Origin: Dysgonomonas sp. HDW5A
GTDB lineage: Bacteria > Bacteroidota > Bacteroidia > Bacteroidales > Dysgonomonadaceae
NCBI RefSeq assembly: GCF_011299555.1
Contig: NZ_CP049857.1
Coordinates: 930,001 to 994,000, forward strand
Direction: 5' to 3'
Length of the DNA: 64,000 nucleotides
The notes below the pieces were generated by a model. The model did no database searches, was not told where the DNA came from, and saw only the letters and a program-made list of their open reading frames with translations. Of this stretch, positions 10,480-62,273 are shown in pieces (within the stretch, counting starts at the first letter, position 1; the number at the start of each line of letters is the position of its first letter). Position numbers and translations under genes: made by a program.

Positions 10480-10570
10480 ACTTCAAGTAATATTAAATAT
10501 TCATTGCTATATTTCTAAATGTAACGACCTACCATTACTATATTTGCGAAAGCAATAAAGAGGCATGATC

Positions 10571-11506
10571 TTACTTTTTCTCAGCAATTCGCAACTTTGC
10601 ACTCCGAGACCGCGGATTCGCATCCTGTTCTTCCAGAGATGGAGTTATTACCCTGTTATTTACCAATACAAAAGGAGTATTGATATTGCCATAAAAATCC
10701 TTATCCACCTCTCCTTCAAAATTTCCGGTTTTAAAGAAGTTCTTAACTAAACGATCTTCCAGCGAATGATATGTAATAACAGACAATCGTCCCCCCGAAA
10801 CCAAAACCTCCAATGCCTGAGTCAACATATCTTTCAAAGTCTGCATCTCTTGATTTACTTCGATACGAAGAGCCTGAAAAGCCTGAGCCAACACTTTCTT
10901 TTCTTTCCCCCCTTTAGTATAAGGAGTTAAAATAGGCAGCAAATCCTTCACTTTCTCGAAAGCCTTTTCTTTACGCTGACGAACAACAGCTGCTGCAATC
11001 TGCCTCGATGGCTTTAACTCACCATACAGATATAGAATATTTGCCAAATCTTCTTCAGCATATTCATTCAATATTTTAGCCGCCGTAAGATCCGATTTCT
11101 GATTCATTCTCATATCAAGATATCCTTCTTCGAAGCGAAAAGAGAATCCACGTTCGCTATCATCAAAATGATGAGACGAAACTCCCAGATCAGCTAGAAC
11201 CGAATTTACCTTTGTTACATTATGATACTTAAGGAATGTCTTCAAGAAACAAAAGTTACTACGAATAAACGTTTGTTTCTTATCATCTGCAATATTCTGA
11301 ATTGCATCTTCATCCTGATCAAACACATACAAATGTCCTCCTGCTCCCAAACGGGATAAAATCTCACGGGAATGACCGCCACCACCGAAGGTTACATCCA
11401 CACAAATATCGTTTGCCTGGATATTCATACCATCAACACTCTCCTTTAACAGAACAGGCACATGGTAACCATCAGCCGTCACTACATTTTTTTTATCTTT
11501 AGCCAT
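10571..11506 (-). CDS. rsmH: 16S rRNA (cytosine(1402)-N(4))-methyltransferase RsmH
   Basis: SAM-dependent methyltransferase (formerly MraW) acting on C1402 of 16S rRNA in the decoding centre. The SAM-binding loop FGGGGHSREIL, the LGVSSHHFD segment and the C-terminal ITYHSLEDR and NPRSRSAKLR motifs are family hallmarks. I place the start at the ATG at 11506, one base after the mraZ stop (TGA-T-ATG), giving 311 residues; a GTG at 11521 would create a 14-bp overlap. Tight coupling to mraZ indicates one transcript. Confidence 0.95.
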   Translation of the reverse strand: MAKDKKNVVTADGYHVPVLLKESVDGMNIQANDICVDVTFGGGGHSREILSRLGAGGHLYVFDQDEDAIQNIADDKKQTFIRSNFCFLKTFLKYHNVTKVNSVLADLGVSSHHFDDSERGFSFRFEEGYLDMRMNQKSDLTAAKILNEYAEEDLANILYLYGELKPSRQIAAAVVRQRKEKAFEKVKDLLPILTPYTKGGKEKKVLAQAFQALRIEVNQEMQTLKDMLTQALEVLVSGGRLSVITYHSLEDRLVKNFFKTGNFEGEVDKDFYGNINTPFVLVNNRVITPSLEEQDANPRSRSAKLRIAEKK

Positions 11507-12105: not shown

Positions 12106-12297
12106 AAAGTTTTAGTAAAAAGTTTTCAACATACTCATTTATATTAAAATCAAGCTATTACAACGAAGTAAATCGAGACTAAATAATAGCCCCCACAAAC
12201 CATTCAAATATAAAATTGAGAATAATAAGACGACTAAATCGTGACTTTGTATAAAATAAATTATCTTTACGGTTTCAGGAAATTCAGAGTGTAAGTA

Positions 12298-13146
12298 ATG
12301 GGAGAAGTAGTAGAAAAGAATACTCCAAATTTAATAGATTTGGACAAGGTGTTTATGGATAAGGCTCCTAAGCTTTATGCCAAAACGCCTGCTTTTGCTC
12401 TCAACTACATAAAAAGGAAAATTCATCTGAATGAACTGAATGAAATCCTGACGATTTACGCTGACAAATATGGTGTAGATTTTATGGATTCGGTGGTTCA
12501 GTATTTCGATTTACGACTTGAGGTCAACGGACTGGATAACATCCCGAATGATAACCGATATATATTTGTATCAAACCATCCATTGGGAGGACTTGATGGC
12601 ATTTGCCTGTCATCTATCATTGGAAATAAATTTGATAAGAAGATAAAATATCTCGTAAATGATGTACTTTATTTCATCAAAAATCTACGTCCAATATTTC
12701 TTCCGATCAACAAATATGGAGCCCAAGCAAAAGAAAAAGCTGCTCAATTAAACGAGGCTTATGCTTCGGACGATCAAATTATTACATTTCCGGCAGGTTT
12801 GTGTTCCCGAAAAATAAACGGGCGAATATATGATCTGCAATGGCAAAAATCGTTCATTCAAAAAGCTATACAAACCAAGCGTGACGTTGTTCCTATTTAT
12901 TTTGACGCTAAAAACTCAAATTTCTTTTATAGATTTGCAAATCTCAGAAAGAAATTAGGTATAAAATTCAATATAGAAACATTTTTTCTACCCGACGAAA
13001 TGTTTAAAAATAAGCATCAGACATTTTCTGTTACCTTTGGGAGTCCTATACCATGGGAATCTTTTGACGAGACAAAATCTCATCAACAGTGGGCAGAAAC
13101 AGTAAAAGATATAGCATATAATTTAGCGGAAAGCAATTCGAAATAA
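12298..13146 (+). CDS. glsA: PlsC-like O-acyltransferase, probable glycine-lipid synthase subunit GlsA
   Basis: A 282-residue lysophospholipid acyltransferase-type protein. The catalytic block is NHPLGGLDG near residues 96-104, with one more residue between His and Asp than the usual HX4D motif; the FPAGLCSRK segment near 160 is the second conserved block. Together with the downstream GNAT-like gene it matches the glsA/glsB pair of Bacteroides thetaiotaomicron, where GlsB N-acylates glycine and GlsA adds the second, ester-linked acyl chain. The substrate is inferred from pairing and family; a general 1-acylglycerol-phosphate acyltransferase is the alternative. Confidence 0.75.
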   Translation: MGEVVEKNTPNLIDLDKVFMDKAPKLYAKTPAFALNYIKRKIHLNELNEILTIYADKYGVDFMDSVVQYFDLRLEVNGLDNIPNDNRYIFVSNHPLGGLDGICLSSIIGNKFDKKIKYLVNDVLYFIKNLRPIFLPINKYGAQAKEKAAQLNEAYASDDQIITFPAGLCSRKINGRIYDLQWQKSFIQKAIQTKRDVVPIYFDAKNSNFFYRFANLRKKLGIKFNIETFFLPDEMFKNKHQTFSVTFGSPIPWESFDETKSHQQWAETVKDIAYNLAESNSK

Positions 13147-13228
13147 GGTCGCAAATTGCTCTAAAGCTTCGTTAGCAGAATAACGATAAATCGGTATTCT
13201 TTTTTAAATAAATATTTGACGTTACTTA
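13147..13228 (+). repeat. Degenerate copy of the GGTCTCAGACC dispersed element between glsA and glsB
   Basis: The element begins directly on the glsA stop codon (TAA then GGTCGCA) and ends with ATAAATATTTGACG plus TTACTTA at 13208-13228, four bases before the glsB ATG. The left palindrome is degraded, but the right module is very close to those at 40024-40044 and 62253-62273. It fills almost the entire 86-bp gap between the genes. Confidence 0.55.
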
Positions 13229-13232
13229 AAAT

Positions 13233-14258
13233 ATGGAAAGTATTATTCCGGCAATCGATAAGAAACTTTTAATAGCTGAACTTACAAAAGATAAATTCTT
13301 GCGTAAAACAAATAAAGCTAATAATGAAATTTACATTATCACTCACCATAACTCCCCTAATGTTATGCGTGAGATTGCACGTTTGCGCGAAATTGCATTC
13401 CGTTATTATGGTGGGGGAACAGGTAAGGAAATAGATATTGACGAATACGATATGATGGACAACCCATACAAACAACTAATTGTATGGAATCCTGAAGCTG
13501 AAGAGATATTGGGAGGTTATCGCTTTATTTGCGGCCCCGACATTAAATTCGATAAAAACGGAGAGCCCGAATTAGCGACATCACATCTTTTTCACTTTTC
13601 TCCTAAATTCATCAACGAATATCTTCCTTATACCATTGAATTGGGTAGATCGTTCGTTTCACTGGAATACCAAAGTACGCGAGCAGGCTCGAAAGGTATT
13701 TTTGCCCTCGACAATCTTTGGGACGGATTAGGTGCATTATCCGTAGCTGAACCAACGATGAGGTACTTCTTCGGTAAAGTAACTATGTACGATACATATG
13801 ATGCTAAAGCCAGAGACATGATCTTATACTTCATGTTTAAGCACTTTCCTGATCCTGACAAATTAGTTTATCCAAAGAAAAGTCTGAACATCACTACAGA
13901 TAGCAAAGTTTTGAAAAAGCTTTTCACCGAGGATGACTTGAAAACCGATTATAAAATATTGAATACGTCAGTCAGAAGATTGGGTATTAATATTCCTCCA
14001 TTGGTGAATGCTTATATGGGCTTATCTCCTCAAATGAAAGTTTTTGGAACAGCCGTAAATGATACATTTGGTAATGTAGAAGAAACCGGGATACTTATTG
14101 ACAAAGATGAAATTCTGGAAGAAAAACGCAAACGCCATATAGAGTCATATATTCTGGACAAACCATCCAAGCGCTTCTTAAAAAGACTACGCCAGATGAT
14201 TAACTGGAACTGGAGTACATACCGTACTAAATCTACCAGAAGAGCAAATTCAAAATAA
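13233..14258 (+). CDS. glsB: Hemolysin-related GNAT N-acyltransferase, probable glycine-lipid synthase subunit GlsB
   Basis: A 341-residue protein of the acyltransferase family related to OlsB, which N-acylates amino acids with 3-hydroxy fatty acids. Features seen are MREIARLREIAFRYYGGGTG in the N-terminal third, the EILGGYRFICG beta-strand region, IELGRSFVSLEYQ and the basic C-terminal tail (about 25 residues, many Arg and Lys). The B. thetaiotaomicron homologue is required for commendamide and glycine lipids. It is separated from the PlsC-like gene by 86 bp in the same orientation. Ornithine as the substrate cannot be excluded from sequence alone. Confidence 0.75.
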   Translation: MESIIPAIDKKLLIAELTKDKFLRKTNKANNEIYIITHHNSPNVMREIARLREIAFRYYGGGTGKEIDIDEYDMMDNPYKQLIVWNPEAEEILGGYRFICGPDIKFDKNGEPELATSHLFHFSPKFINEYLPYTIELGRSFVSLEYQSTRAGSKGIFALDNLWDGLGALSVAEPTMRYFFGKVTMYDTYDAKARDMILYFMFKHFPDPDKLVYPKKSLNITTDSKVLKKLFTEDDLKTDYKILNTSVRRLGINIPPLVNAYMGLSPQMKVFGTAVNDTFGNVEETGILIDKDEILEEKRKRHIESYILDKPSKRFLKRLRQMINWNWSTYRTKSTRRANSK

Positions 14259-14338
14259 TAAAAAGTTCCGAGAACTTAACTTAACTTTAATATTTATAAA
14301 CTTTGATTTAAGCGAGCTTACCCAAGCAGGCTTTTTCA

Positions 14339-20888: not shown

Positions 20889-20900
20889 TATTTAAATTAA

Positions 20901-20911
20901 GGTCTGAGACC
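20901..20911. repeat. Palindrome-only copy of the dispersed element (GGTCTGAGACC)
   Basis: Perfect 5-bp-arm odd palindrome located 13 bp upstream of the S46 start codon, inside its inferred leader. The following CCATTTGTTA matches the sequence next to a degraded version (AAGGCATGAGCC) upstream of mraZ at about 11970-11989. Confidence 0.55.
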
Positions 20912-20947
20912 CATTTGTTATTTCGAGATACGTACCAAATCAAAAAG

Positions 20948-22856: not shown

Positions 22857-22859
22857 TAA

Positions 22860-22943
22860 GATCTCAGATATTTTTATTGCATTAGCTTGTAAAACAGTGA
22901 CAGTAAGTTGCCTGAGAACATAGTATTAAATATCAGCTTCTAC
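22860..22943 (+). repeat. Degenerate copy of the dispersed element in the acyl-CoA synthetase leader
   Basis: GATCTCAGATA followed by TTTTTATTGC and ATTAGCTTGT, then at the far end ATTAAATATC and TTCTACTG. Order, spacing and length (84 bp) match the clearer copies, though few blocks are identical. It starts 3 bp after the -7 element. Confidence 0.4.
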
Positions 22944-23018
22944 TGTCATACCACTAAAGCCTGAGAGAACTTTATATATGACATCCGGAAGACCTTACCA
23001 GAAGTAAAAAACATCGAA

Positions 23019-26850: not shown

Positions 26851-26873
26851 TTTTTTTAGTGTTGTTAGTTTAA

Positions 26874-26963
26874 GGTCGCAGACCTTTTTATTGCTTTGGC
26901 AAGTATTACAGATATAGATTGTTATAACTATAAAATACACCCATAAATTTTATTCTTTACTTA
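26874..26963 (+). repeat. Full copy of the dispersed element, inverted relative to the adjacent gene
   Basis: GGTCGCAGACC (26874-26884), TTTTTATT, GCTTTGGCAAG (26893-26903), central GTTATAA and terminal ATAAATTTTATT plus TTTACTTA: 90 bp. It lies in the gap between the outer-membrane protein gene and prfB but points away from the start codon it sits in front of, so it is not simply a 5' leader. Confidence 0.65.
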
Positions 26964-33210: not shown

Positions 33211-33301
33211 TCAAGCAATGCCAAATATTAATTGCTATATTTAAAAATTATAACAACTTATTGGCATTACACTTACCATAAGAATAAAAAGGTCTGAGAC
33301 C
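33211..33301 (-). repeat. Full copy of the dispersed element, inverted relative to the following gene
   Basis: Read on the minus strand: GGTCTCAGACC, TTTTTATT, CTTATGGTAAG, central GTTATAA and an AT-rich end, 91 bp. The palindrome (33291-33301) lies 15 bp upstream of the glycosyltransferase ATG. A separate partial palindrome, GGTCTGCGAGC, lies at 33139-33149. Confidence 0.6.
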
Positions 33302-33316
33302 TCAATGCTATTTTGA

Positions 33317-34466: not shown

Positions 34467-34475
34467 TGACATTAA

Positions 34476-34562
34476 GGTCTCAGACCTTTTTATTGCTTTG
34501 GCAAGCTTAGTAACAATTGTTAGTTCTAATTAAGAAACATAGCAATAAAGTAATCGTATCTA
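34476..34562 (+). repeat. Dispersed element copy upstream of peptidase C1B
   Basis: The clearest left half in the window: perfect palindrome GGTCTCAGACC at 34476-34486, then TTTTTATT and the small palindrome GCTTTGGCAAGC at 34495-34506. The right half (ATAAAGTAATC and CTAATTTA) is diverged. It ends 16 bp before the ATG at 34579. Confidence 0.65.
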
Positions 34563-34578
34563 ATTTAAATAACATAAA

Positions 34579-36011: not shown

Positions 36012-37526
36012 ATGAGTTCAAAAGTAAGGGTGCGTTTTGCTCCCAGCCCCACAGGTCCATTACACATCGGAGGTGTACGCACAGCACTGTATAACTATCT
36101 TTTTGCTAAACAGCAAGGTGGAGATTTTATTCTTCGGATTGAAGATACAGATTCGCAACGTTTCGTTCCGGGTGCCGAGGATTACATCATTGAGGCACTA
36201 ACGTGGTTAGGTCTGAATTTTGATGAAGGAACTCACATTGGTGGAAAATATGGTCCATACAGACAATCGGACAGAAAACATATCTACAGAGAATATGTGG
36301 ATATTCTTCTGGATAAAGGTGCTGCTTATATGGCTTTTGACACTCCTGCCGAACTGGATGCCAAAAGAGCTGAAATCGAAAACTTTCAATACGATGCTTC
36401 TACGAGAGGTCAAATGAGAAACTCGCTGACTTTATCGAAAGAAGAAGTTCAGGAATTGATCGACAAAGGCGAAAACTACGTTATTCGTTTCAAAATAGAA
36501 CCCAACGAAAATATTACTGTCGAAGACCTTATCAGAGGTAATGTGGTAATAAACTCATCGGAACTTGACGATAAAGTTTTGTTCAAATCGGCTGACAATT
36601 TACCCACCTATCATCTTGCCAATATTGTAGATGATCATTTAATGGAAATATCGCATGTGATAAGAGGCGAAGAATGGTTACCATCTGCCCCTCTACATGT
36701 ATTGTTATATAGAGCTTTTGGATGGGCGGATACTATGCCTAAATTTACACACCTTGCTTTACTTCTGAAACCTGATGGAAAAGGAAAGCTAAGCAAACGC
36801 GATGGCGACCGTTTAGGCTTCCCTGTATTTCCTCTTCTTTGGACTGATCCTAAAACTCAGGAAGTATCTTCGGGATACAGAGAAAGCGGATATCTGCCTC
36901 ATGCCGTTGTCAACTTCCTAGCCTTATTAGGATGGAATCCCGGTAATGATCAGGAAATTATGTCAATGAAAGAACTTATCAAGCTATTCTCTATCGAGAG
37001 ATGTAGCAAGAGCGGTGCAAAATTTGACTTCGAAAAAGGAAAATGGTTCAACCATCAATATATTCAAGCTACATCAAATGAAGAATTAGCTAAATTATTT
37101 GCCCCTATTTTAGAGAAAGAAGGCATCCATACCAATATTGAATATATCGAAACGGTTGTAGGTCTTATCAAAGAACGTGCAAACTTAATCTCTGACTTAT
37201 GGGATCAATCTTCGTTCTTCTTCAAAGCACCTGATAGCTACGATGAGAAAGTAGTCAAAAAACGTTGGAAGGAAGATTCATCGGCTCAGATAGGTGAACT
37301 GTGTGACGTATTAAATGGAATTTCCGACTTCTCGGCACACAATCAGGAAGAAATTGTAAAGCAATGGATCGAAGATAAAGGATATCATCTAGGTAATATA
37401 ATGAATGCTTTCAGACTGGCTATCGTAGGCGAGTCGAAAGGTCCTCATATGTTCGACATCACAGCTACAATAGGCAAGGAAGAAACTCTTGCCCGACTGA
37501 AAACTGCCATATCTAAAATCAAATAA
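36012..37526 (+). CDS. gltX: Glutamate--tRNA ligase
   Basis: Class I aminoacyl-tRNA synthetase charging tRNA-Glu. The ATG at 36012 gives 504 residues starting [21 protein letters not shown], with HIGG as the HIGH-class motif at residues 18-21 and [10 protein letters not shown] as the KMSKS loop. The upstream extension open to a TTG at 35904 encodes a hydrophobic stretch not found in this family and is rejected. The Bacteroidetes-type insertion containing GFPVFPLLW follows KMSKS. The stop codon TAA is directly followed by the dispersed element. Confidence 0.96.
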
Positions 37527-37618
37527 GGTCTCAGACCGTTGTATTGCTTTGGCAGACATAAGAAAACTATAGTCTGTTATAACCCAATAATATATGATTA
37601 AATATTATCTTTTACTTA
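37527..37618 (+). repeat. Dispersed element copy between gltX and waaA
   Basis: Perfect GGTCTCAGACC at 37527-37537 starting on the base after the gltX stop, then TTGTATT, GCTTTGGCAG, central GTTATAA and a terminal ATTAAATATT plus TTTTACTTA: 92 bp. It ends 12 bp before the waaA ATG and so occupies nearly the whole gap. Confidence 0.65.
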
Positions 37619-39932: not shown

Positions 39933-39955
39933 TTATCTCATATAATCTCAATTAA

Positions 39956-40044
39956 GGTTTCAGTCCTTTTTAATAGTTTGGTAAGCATAGTAACCAGAGA
40001 CCATTATGGGGTAAAATCCAACTATAAATATTTAATGTTACTTA
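39956..40044 (+). repeat. Dispersed element copy upstream of bactofilin
   Basis: Left palindrome slightly degraded (GGTTTCAGTCC, 39956-39966), then TTTTTAATAGTTTGGTAAGC, and the right module ATAAATATTTAATG plus TTACTTA at 40024-40044. The right module matches the copy at 62253-62273 in all but one base. Length 89 bp; ends 11 bp before the ATG. Confidence 0.65.
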
Positions 40045-54071: not shown

Positions 54072-54130
54072 AATTCTCAGATCTTATTATCATTTAGGTA
54101 AACATAATCCTATAAACAAGTCTGTGATCT
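54072..54130 (+). repeat. Degenerate dispersed-element fragment upstream of yraN
   Basis: TTCTCAGATC followed by TTATTATCATTTAGGTAAACATAATCC keeps the order palindrome, T-rich stretch, GGTAA, CATAAT of the element but with several changes; the right module is missing. Opposite in direction to yraN. Confidence 0.3.
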
Positions 54131-59965: not shown

Positions 59966-60004
59966 TCAGCAATAAAAACAGCAAATAGAAGATAATATTC
60001 AATA

Positions 60005-60015
60005 GGTCTGAAACC
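60005..60015. repeat. Palindrome-only copy (GGTCTGAAACC) before frr
   Basis: A one-mismatch version of the odd palindrome, 16 bp before the frr ATG, in the pyrH-frr gap. Confidence 0.45.
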
Positions 60016-60031
60016 TTAATTTTCACGAAAA

Positions 60032-60671: not shown

Positions 60672-60719
60672 TATCTTAGAGAATTGATTCAAGATAATAT
60701 TTTATCAGAACTATTTCTT

Positions 60720-60786
60720 GCTTTGGCAAGCAAAAAAAGCAATAGATAGTATGTTTACTAAATATGTCATTAAATAGTTACCTTAC
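60720..60786 (+). repeat. Partial dispersed element upstream of the DUF1015 gene
   Basis: Starts with the small palindrome GCTTTGGCAAGC (60720-60731) and ends near CTAAATATG...GTTACCTTA. The left palindrome is not adjacent. Same orientation as the following gene. Confidence 0.4.
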
Positions 60787-60841
60787 TCAATTGTCCGTGA
60801 AATAAAAACCATATATCAATACGAACTAAAAACACAAAATC

Positions 60842-62134: not shown

Positions 62135-62183
62135 CAGACGAAAAGAAAAGTATAGACAGAATTTTCAACAGGTAATCATTTAA

Positions 62184-62273
62184 GGTCTCAGACCTATTTA
62201 TAACTTTGGTAAGCATAATAGCAAGAGACAGTTATAGTTATAAAATTCAACTATAAATATTTAATGCTACTTA
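62184..62273 (+). repeat. Dispersed element copy upstream of rsgA
   Basis: Perfect GGTCTCAGACC (62184-62194), TATTTATAACTTTGGTAAGC, a central GTTATAA, and the right module ATAAATATTTAATG plus CTACTTA at 62253-62273: 90 bp. The most complete copy in the window together with the one upstream of bactofilin. Confidence 0.7.

Follow-up and report, generated by a model that had tools for sequence, protein, structure and literature searches.

The 64-kb window analysed here, the whole stretch of Dysgonomonas sp. HDW5A DNA under study, contains scattered copies of a repeat of about 89 bp without coding capacity, in which a palindromic head with a T-rich box is followed, in full copies, by a plain tail. 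The copies and the solitary heads lie as follows:

62181..62273, plus strand: full copy, TA + 89 bp + TA, between a DUF1015 gene and an rsgA-type gene
26871..26963, plus strand: full copy with a GGTCGCAGACC head; no spanning empty site found
33212..33304, minus strand: full copy with TG on both sides instead of TA; empty site in Dysgonomonas sp. HGC4
34473..34566, plus strand: copy whose tail has degenerated, with an approximate right border; missing in HGC4
37524..37618, plus strand: full copy with 2 extra bp, lying between gltX and a kdo-transferase gene; empty in three relatives
39953..40044, plus strand: full copy, 1 bp shorter, just before a bactofilin gene; the empty site is exact in HGC4, with indels in D. 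macrotermitis
10484..10573, minus strand: copy between mraW- and ftsL-type genes; missing in HGC4 and in the relative G001 (borders inexact)
13144..13228, plus strand: degenerate old copy, at the same place in HGC4 (G005) and G001; its TAA serves as stop codon for the upstream ORF 12298-13146
22857..22944, plus strand: degenerate copy; missing in HGC4 and G001
60705..60790, plus strand: copy with a damaged head, found as a profile match
20899..20919, plus strand: solo head (palindrome + T-rich box), 10.4 bits, 10 bp before the start of an S46 peptidase gene on the opposite strand; common to HGC4 and G001
14257..14277, minus strand: solo head over the stop of ORF 13233-14258; absent from HGC4 and G001
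59997..60017, minus strand: solo head, 10.5 bits vs 8.7 for the best shuffle

The first six copies were found where the original prediction had placed them and score 73.6-81.9 bits with a profile that was trained on these same copies, so that their scores are high by construction. Chance level was taken as 8.7 bits, the highest score reached when the window was shuffled 20 times with a first-order Markov model. Among the weaker copies that had been proposed, those at 60720 (25.3 bits), 22860 (16.5 bits) and 13147 (16.5 bits) stand above this level, whereas the one at 54072-54130 (8.1 bits) falls within the shuffle range and is not retained. The same profile added a minus-strand copy absent from the earlier list, at 10484-10573 (37.0 bits), and a few solo heads.

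That the repeat is dispersed holds genome-wide. Across the HDW5A genome, which is one contig of 4,298,355 bases, AAGGTCTCAGACC occurs with at most one mismatch 186 and 149 times on the two strands (near-palindromic sites being counted on both) vs 1 and 1 for the reversed control, and the sequence outside the window was absent from the training of the first profile. A sequence-only model of 96 positions, built from 28 copies (24 from the HDW5A genome, inside or outside the window, and at most four from the loci of relatives), gives 152 matches in this genome at E up to 0.1, to be read as at least 150 copies, the weakest among the matches listed scoring 42.5 bits. Many intergenic repeats for which there would be no other account are thereby explained. 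A replichore strand bias was considered and rejected, as the exact-match run of 23/23 sites on one strand over 0-1.86 Mb was an artefact of listing near-palindromic sites; the strand counts of 150 model matches are 48 plus and 27 minus at 0-1.85 Mb (P 0.02) and 31 plus and 44 minus beyond (P 0.17), and we claim no bias from them, the cut-point itself stemming from the artefact.

The genomic setting was assessed in 401 kb of HDW5A sequence, made up of the window and 53 loci picked by head or tail motifs. In this sample, 87.6% of which is ORF, the midpoints of 47 of the 49 copies (48 distinct) lie outside ORFs of at least 100 aa. The orientation of the copies to neighbouring genes is unconstrained: among the 46 distinct copies with two neighbours, 20 point along and 14 against codirectional genes (P 0.39), 9 lie between divergent genes and 3 between convergent ones, and when head-only matches are included, 22 point along and 30 against codirectional genes, of 64. 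An intrinsic terminator, which the head and its T-run resemble, was rejected on the ground that full copies occur in both orientations.

The ends were measured on the 40 best-listed further model matches of the HDW5A genome, each head and each tail being located independently. In 38 of the 40, 89 bp separate the two flanking dinucleotides (two matches, L195 and L222, are shifted by 1 nt and were left out of later counts), a correction to the 82-92 bp proposed originally; over all heads with a recognisable tail within 160 bp, however, the length is less fixed, 15/43 standing at the exact 89-bp spacing and 26/43 within -2 to +4 bp of it, and a fixed length is therefore a property of the best copies only. 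In these the 89-bp body reads 5'-AG[G/T]TC..ACT-3' and has TA on both sides. The flanking dinucleotide is TA on the left in 35/40, on the right in 36/40 and on both sides in 32/40. Contrary to the original prediction, which saw no recognisable transposon ends, the ends can thus be recognised as TA-AG...CT-TA. They also form terminal inverted repeats, as is general for miniature inverted-repeat elements (MITEs): when 48 copies were compared with their own reverse complements, a mean of 11.27 of 21 positions agreed at offset 0 vs 4.60-7.56 at eight other offsets. These repeats are divergent and in register, and comprise the terminal AG together with a TATTTA-TG box that lies 13-21 bases from the end. 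No counterpart of the head palindrome exists at the tail, and the likeness between the two ends falls far short of that in textbook MITEs.

Some flanks are uncoupled. Five copies are without the left TA, and four of these have the right TA, L222 with its indel among them; the copy at 10484 and L198 combine a left TA with a right TG, and a copy of HGC4 that is discussed below reads AA/CA. Later mutation could explain such flanks, and so could a fixed right end. TTA precedes 21 of the 40 copies and ends 36 of the 40, whatever the left flank, and if the right end were always TTA and insertion followed a TTA, the empty sites would look like those of a TA duplication everywhere but at 33.2 kb, so that a TA duplication is a putative reading of the borders. 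The 33.2-kb copy is flanked by TG/TG and its empty site in HGC4 has one TG, just as a 2-bp duplication predicts.

Orthologous stretches of relatives bear directly on mobility. Each copy was deleted in silico together with one flanking dinucleotide, and the resulting sequence was searched against a panel of ten stretches. In the alignment of the window with HGC4, gaps coincide with copies. The 37.5-kb copy has a gap-free empty site in HGC4, D. macrotermitis and D. capnocytophagoides, and the 33.2-kb copy has one in HGC4; the site of the 39.9-kb copy is empty in HGC4 with 3 gaps and an exact junction, and in D. macrotermitis with 5 gaps in a diverged flank. Reciprocally, a copy of HGC4 (18.3 kb of L042) corresponds to an empty site at 43.9 kb of the window, with 1 gap off the junction. 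Precise empty sites were thus obtained for 4 distinct copies, or 5 of 13 full-length rows, the HGC4 copy appearing in two loci (L042 and L176) and so counting as two rows. Two further rows were spanned only with many gaps (22857 of the window with 21, L043 14387 with 6-22), and no spanning empty site was found in the ten stretches for the remaining 6/13 (L043 5742, L173 4376, L175 8571 and window 26871, 60705 and 62181, the orthologous stretches of the last two lying outside this panel). The gain relative to the empty sites is precise and amounts to about 91 bp. These precise empty sites, that of the reciprocal HGC4 copy among them, show mobility directly, and they bear out the suggestion of a non-autonomous mobile element that had first been offered as one option among several.

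Insertions of different ages are present. The copy at 13144 is common to HGC4 and G001 and those at 10484 and 22857 are missing there, which indicates that the family holds both old and young insertions; in the HDW5A genome, pairs of copies differ at as few as 1 to 3 of 89 positions, pointing to recent movement, and the copy at 26871..26963 has relatives elsewhere in the genome that are up to 93% identical to it. In the G001 interval that matches the 22857 copy we observed two GGTCTCAGACC palindromes, inverted and 54 bp apart (L174, about 12166-12235), possibly a second type of element with heads at both ends.

At some loci the insertion has touched the coding sequence. In 9 of the 48 distinct copies, the left TA and the A that follows form the TAA stop of an ATG-initiated open frame that is 80 codons or longer. 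The gltX protein ends in SKIK in the window, in SKIEYKA in HGC4 and D. capnocytophagoides and in STIEYKA in D. macrotermitis; the left end of the 37.5-kb insertion supplied the stop codon of gltX and changed the end of the protein. The family supplies for Dysgonomonas at least 150 insertions across the genome that can be dated and that alter leaders, operon spacers and stop codons, with gltX as a worked example.

Altogether, with at least 150 copies of an 89-bp sequence devoid of coding capacity, terminal inverted repeats and precise insertion polymorphism, the repeat is very probably a family of miniature non-autonomous transposable elements (MITE-like), and it is a new family of a known kind. 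The original prediction had also allowed for a structured RNA or a regulatory repeat. A structured cis-regulatory RNA family of the genus would be in keeping with the near-constant length of the best copies, their conserved blocks and their position close to genes, but the window holds no Rfam family at the gathering threshold, and the 7 matches obtained up to E 10 all fall outside the copies. The consensus folds are small as well: RNAalifold on 28 copies predicts four pairs only, in the head palindrome, at -2.15 kcal/mol, and on 10 copies the consensus amounts to a 3-bp stem. As the copies further occur in both orientations relative to genes and are polymorphic in presence, we regard an RNA family as highly improbable.

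Part of the family carries cargo. Among 20 loci chosen because their tail lacked a listed full copy, 6 hold between them 7 copies (L155, L159, L165, two in L166, L167 and L169, all in the HDW5A genome) with a GTAGGGG...CCCCTAC-like REP-like doublet at one fixed internal place, just after the CTTTGG block or, in L159, a variant of this block. Six cargo copies could be measured, of which four are 124 bp long, one 125 and one 126. Finding this insert at an identical position in copies from different sites indicates that the composite has spread as a unit; mobility would then need no more than about 30 bp of the left end and 35 bp of the right. In L166 (1896-6441), two inverted copies of the cargo class enclose a segment of about 4.3 kb that contains two long ORFs (629 and 682 aa).

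GTAG-type doublets are a substrate of RAYT proteins, and the repeat itself could be conceived as a single-strand (HUH, Y1) element related to IS200/IS605 or REP, which would insert after TTA with a fixed right end TTA and without target duplication, its head hairpin being recognised by a RAYT-like protein. The head is indeed a perfect short hairpin at the very end of the element, solo heads look like REP-like single hairpins, TTA is distributed at the two ends as described above, and Y1_Tnp has 1 match in the HDW5A genome. Nevertheless, Y1_Tnp, which occurs once in each of the genus genomes G000, G001 and G003, has no match in G004 (D. capnocytophagoides) or G005 (HGC4), which are 98% and 99% complete and carry at least 68 copies each, and membership of the repeat in the REP/RAYT systems was rejected on this account. 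The right end is also without a predicted hairpin in the fold of 28 copies, the TATTTA-TG box is symmetric, the copy at 33.2 kb is flanked by TG/TG, and the GTAG-type doublets are a separate sequence nested within some copies only. We therefore consider a single-strand element unlikely. The one Y1_Tnp (RAYT-like) gene of HDW5A (L122:1258-1797, plus strand) is packed between ORFs, near two similar ORFs that we take to be von Willebrand-like, and a weak match to the element (15.0 bits) lies between those two.

Returning to a MITE-like element, its borders make mobilisation in trans by a TA-targeting DDE transposase the likely route, as a best guess. Such a transposase would bind the terminal AG and the TATTTATTG-like box 13-21 bp inside each end, cut at the ends and join them to TA, duplicating it; insertions within genes would then be purged. 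As side effects, the TA+A of the left end would give a TAA stop to some genes, and about 91 bp would be added to leaders and operon spacers. The enzyme was sought by its domain. DDE_3 (IS630) has no match in any of six genomes of the genus, which include that of HDW5A and one that is 62% complete, and an IS630/Tc1-mariner derivative was accordingly rejected; in 20 loci around DDE_3 genes of other genera, the element model reaches at best 10.3 bits, at a solo palindrome of G052, a genome of another family. DDE_Tnp_1 has none in the HDW5A genome, the only genome searched for it. We recognised no autonomous partner or shared ends in stretches covering about a tenth of the genome, and among the ORFs listed for ten tail-only loci and L166, no wider-spaced head-tail pair was shown to hold a transposase. 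The rve domain has 5 matches in this genome, four of them in near-identical copies of one recent IS (L180-L183), three copies being identical over 2478 bp and the fourth 99.9% identical over 2402. This raises the question of what enzyme mobilises an 89-bp element with TA borders if its genome encodes neither DDE_3 nor DDE_Tnp_1. One answer would be a still-active element with asymmetric ends, a palindromic head and a plain tail, that is moved by an enzyme outside the recognised transposase families or by a domesticated host enzyme. This idea follows from copies that differ at 1 position in 89, from the absence of DDE_3 and DDE_Tnp_1 and from a Y1 gene that is dispensable across the genus, and we hold it to be rather improbable.

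The element can be set beside the MITEs of P. gingivalis, which belongs to the same order as Dysgonomonas, and beside NEMIS/Correia and RUP, which target TA, are linked to an IS630-type helper and have long, good inverted repeats. With NEMIS/Correia and RUP it has in common a length of about 100 bp, the absence of genes and of a transposase of its own, an intergenic location, a high copy number and TA borders; it differs from them in that its inverted repeats are divergent and in that DDE_3 is absent from its own genome and five others of the genus. RUP, NEMIS and others are listed as MITEs in PMC3733652, and NEMIS/Correia and RUP are named in PMC2229807. The non-autonomous MITEs of P. gingivalis, BrickBuilt, MITE239, MITE464/PgRS and MITE700, are longer, have 10-20 copies and contain minisatellites in two of the four, and their terminal inverted repeats match IS5-family insertion sequences at both ends, for example GAGACCTTTGCA/TGCAAAGGTCTC (PMC4596501). 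The BrickBuilt ends given there, GAGACC/GGTCTC, resemble part of the Dysgonomonas head palindrome, a likeness that is partial. Unlike the P. gingivalis MITEs as that source describes them, the Dysgonomonas element has GGTCTCAGACC at one end only, and the borders defined by its empty sites lie outside GGTCTCAGACC. An IS5-derived origin as in P. gingivalis was rejected, the HDW5A genome being without DDE_Tnp_1 and the right end showing no match to GAGACC. Dispersed short palindromes and a single Y1 gene in the genome recall the REP/RAYT systems; PMC3733652 deals with REPs that carry a GTAG tag, and relative to those treated there the Dysgonomonas palindrome and its foot differ, both types being present with the REP-like doublet nested in the element.

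Heads without tails fit less well. In the HDW5A stretches, 36 of 79 heads with at most two mismatches have no tail within 160 bp, some of them exact heads, a share that is biased because the loci were mostly picked by an exact head. A simple two-ended element does not predict these 36/79 tail-less heads, and they count against the explanation that we prefer. Solo heads may have arisen by decay of full copies or by insertion of one end, or they may serve a purpose of their own. According to the last possibility, the head palindrome GGTCTNAGACC would be a functional host site, an operator or a short transcript hairpin, that the element has spread and that selection keeps in solo heads. The exact palindrome AAGGTCTNAGACCTT has 64 sites in the HDW5A genome, where the reversed control has 0, and is absent from 143 of 149 order-wide genomes (a draw that included the HDW5A genome as the sole member of its genus); the other five have 1-4 sites each, in G010 no more than the control. 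Three species share the solo head that precedes the S46 peptidase gene, and the head pair reads GG..CC or GT..AC in 51/53 copies, the second form in 23. This paired change, however, tracks subfamilies and may be one event, the flanks of the shared solo head are by eye equally conserved, and the solo head at 14257 is private to the window. We judge a selected host site to be a rather unlikely account.

Beyond HDW5A, the MITE-like family is concentrated in its genus. With stricter filters, 20 of 61 genomes (HDW5A and 60 relatives) have a match at E <= 0.01. All 4/4 near-complete genomes of the same genus carry at least 68 copies each, and a fifth that is 62% complete has 1 match. The element is sparse elsewhere in the family, with 35, 13, 8, 5, 4 and 4 matches in six genomes of other genera, 1 in four and none in the rest, and it is rare and weak beyond, with matches in four genomes, 6 in G052 (best E 1.5e-4) and 1 in each of three. 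No convincing copy was found in the plasmids, phages and viral contigs searched; one phage, in two records, gave a match with 39% coverage at E 0.07. A search of the open-access literature found no paper on a comparable Dysgonomonas repeat, and the papers that contain a head-like string concern other subjects, judging by their titles. Among the best 80 of 466 loci, from which near-identical records may be omitted, the closest match to the window's gltX protein is that of Dysgonomonas sp. HGC4 (89%), followed by other Dysgonomonas. G052 contains four exact palindromes, and in one of its loci (L258, about 1850-1881) a head-like palindrome, TAAGGTCTAAGACCTATTTAATG, occurs together with a weak DDE_3 match.
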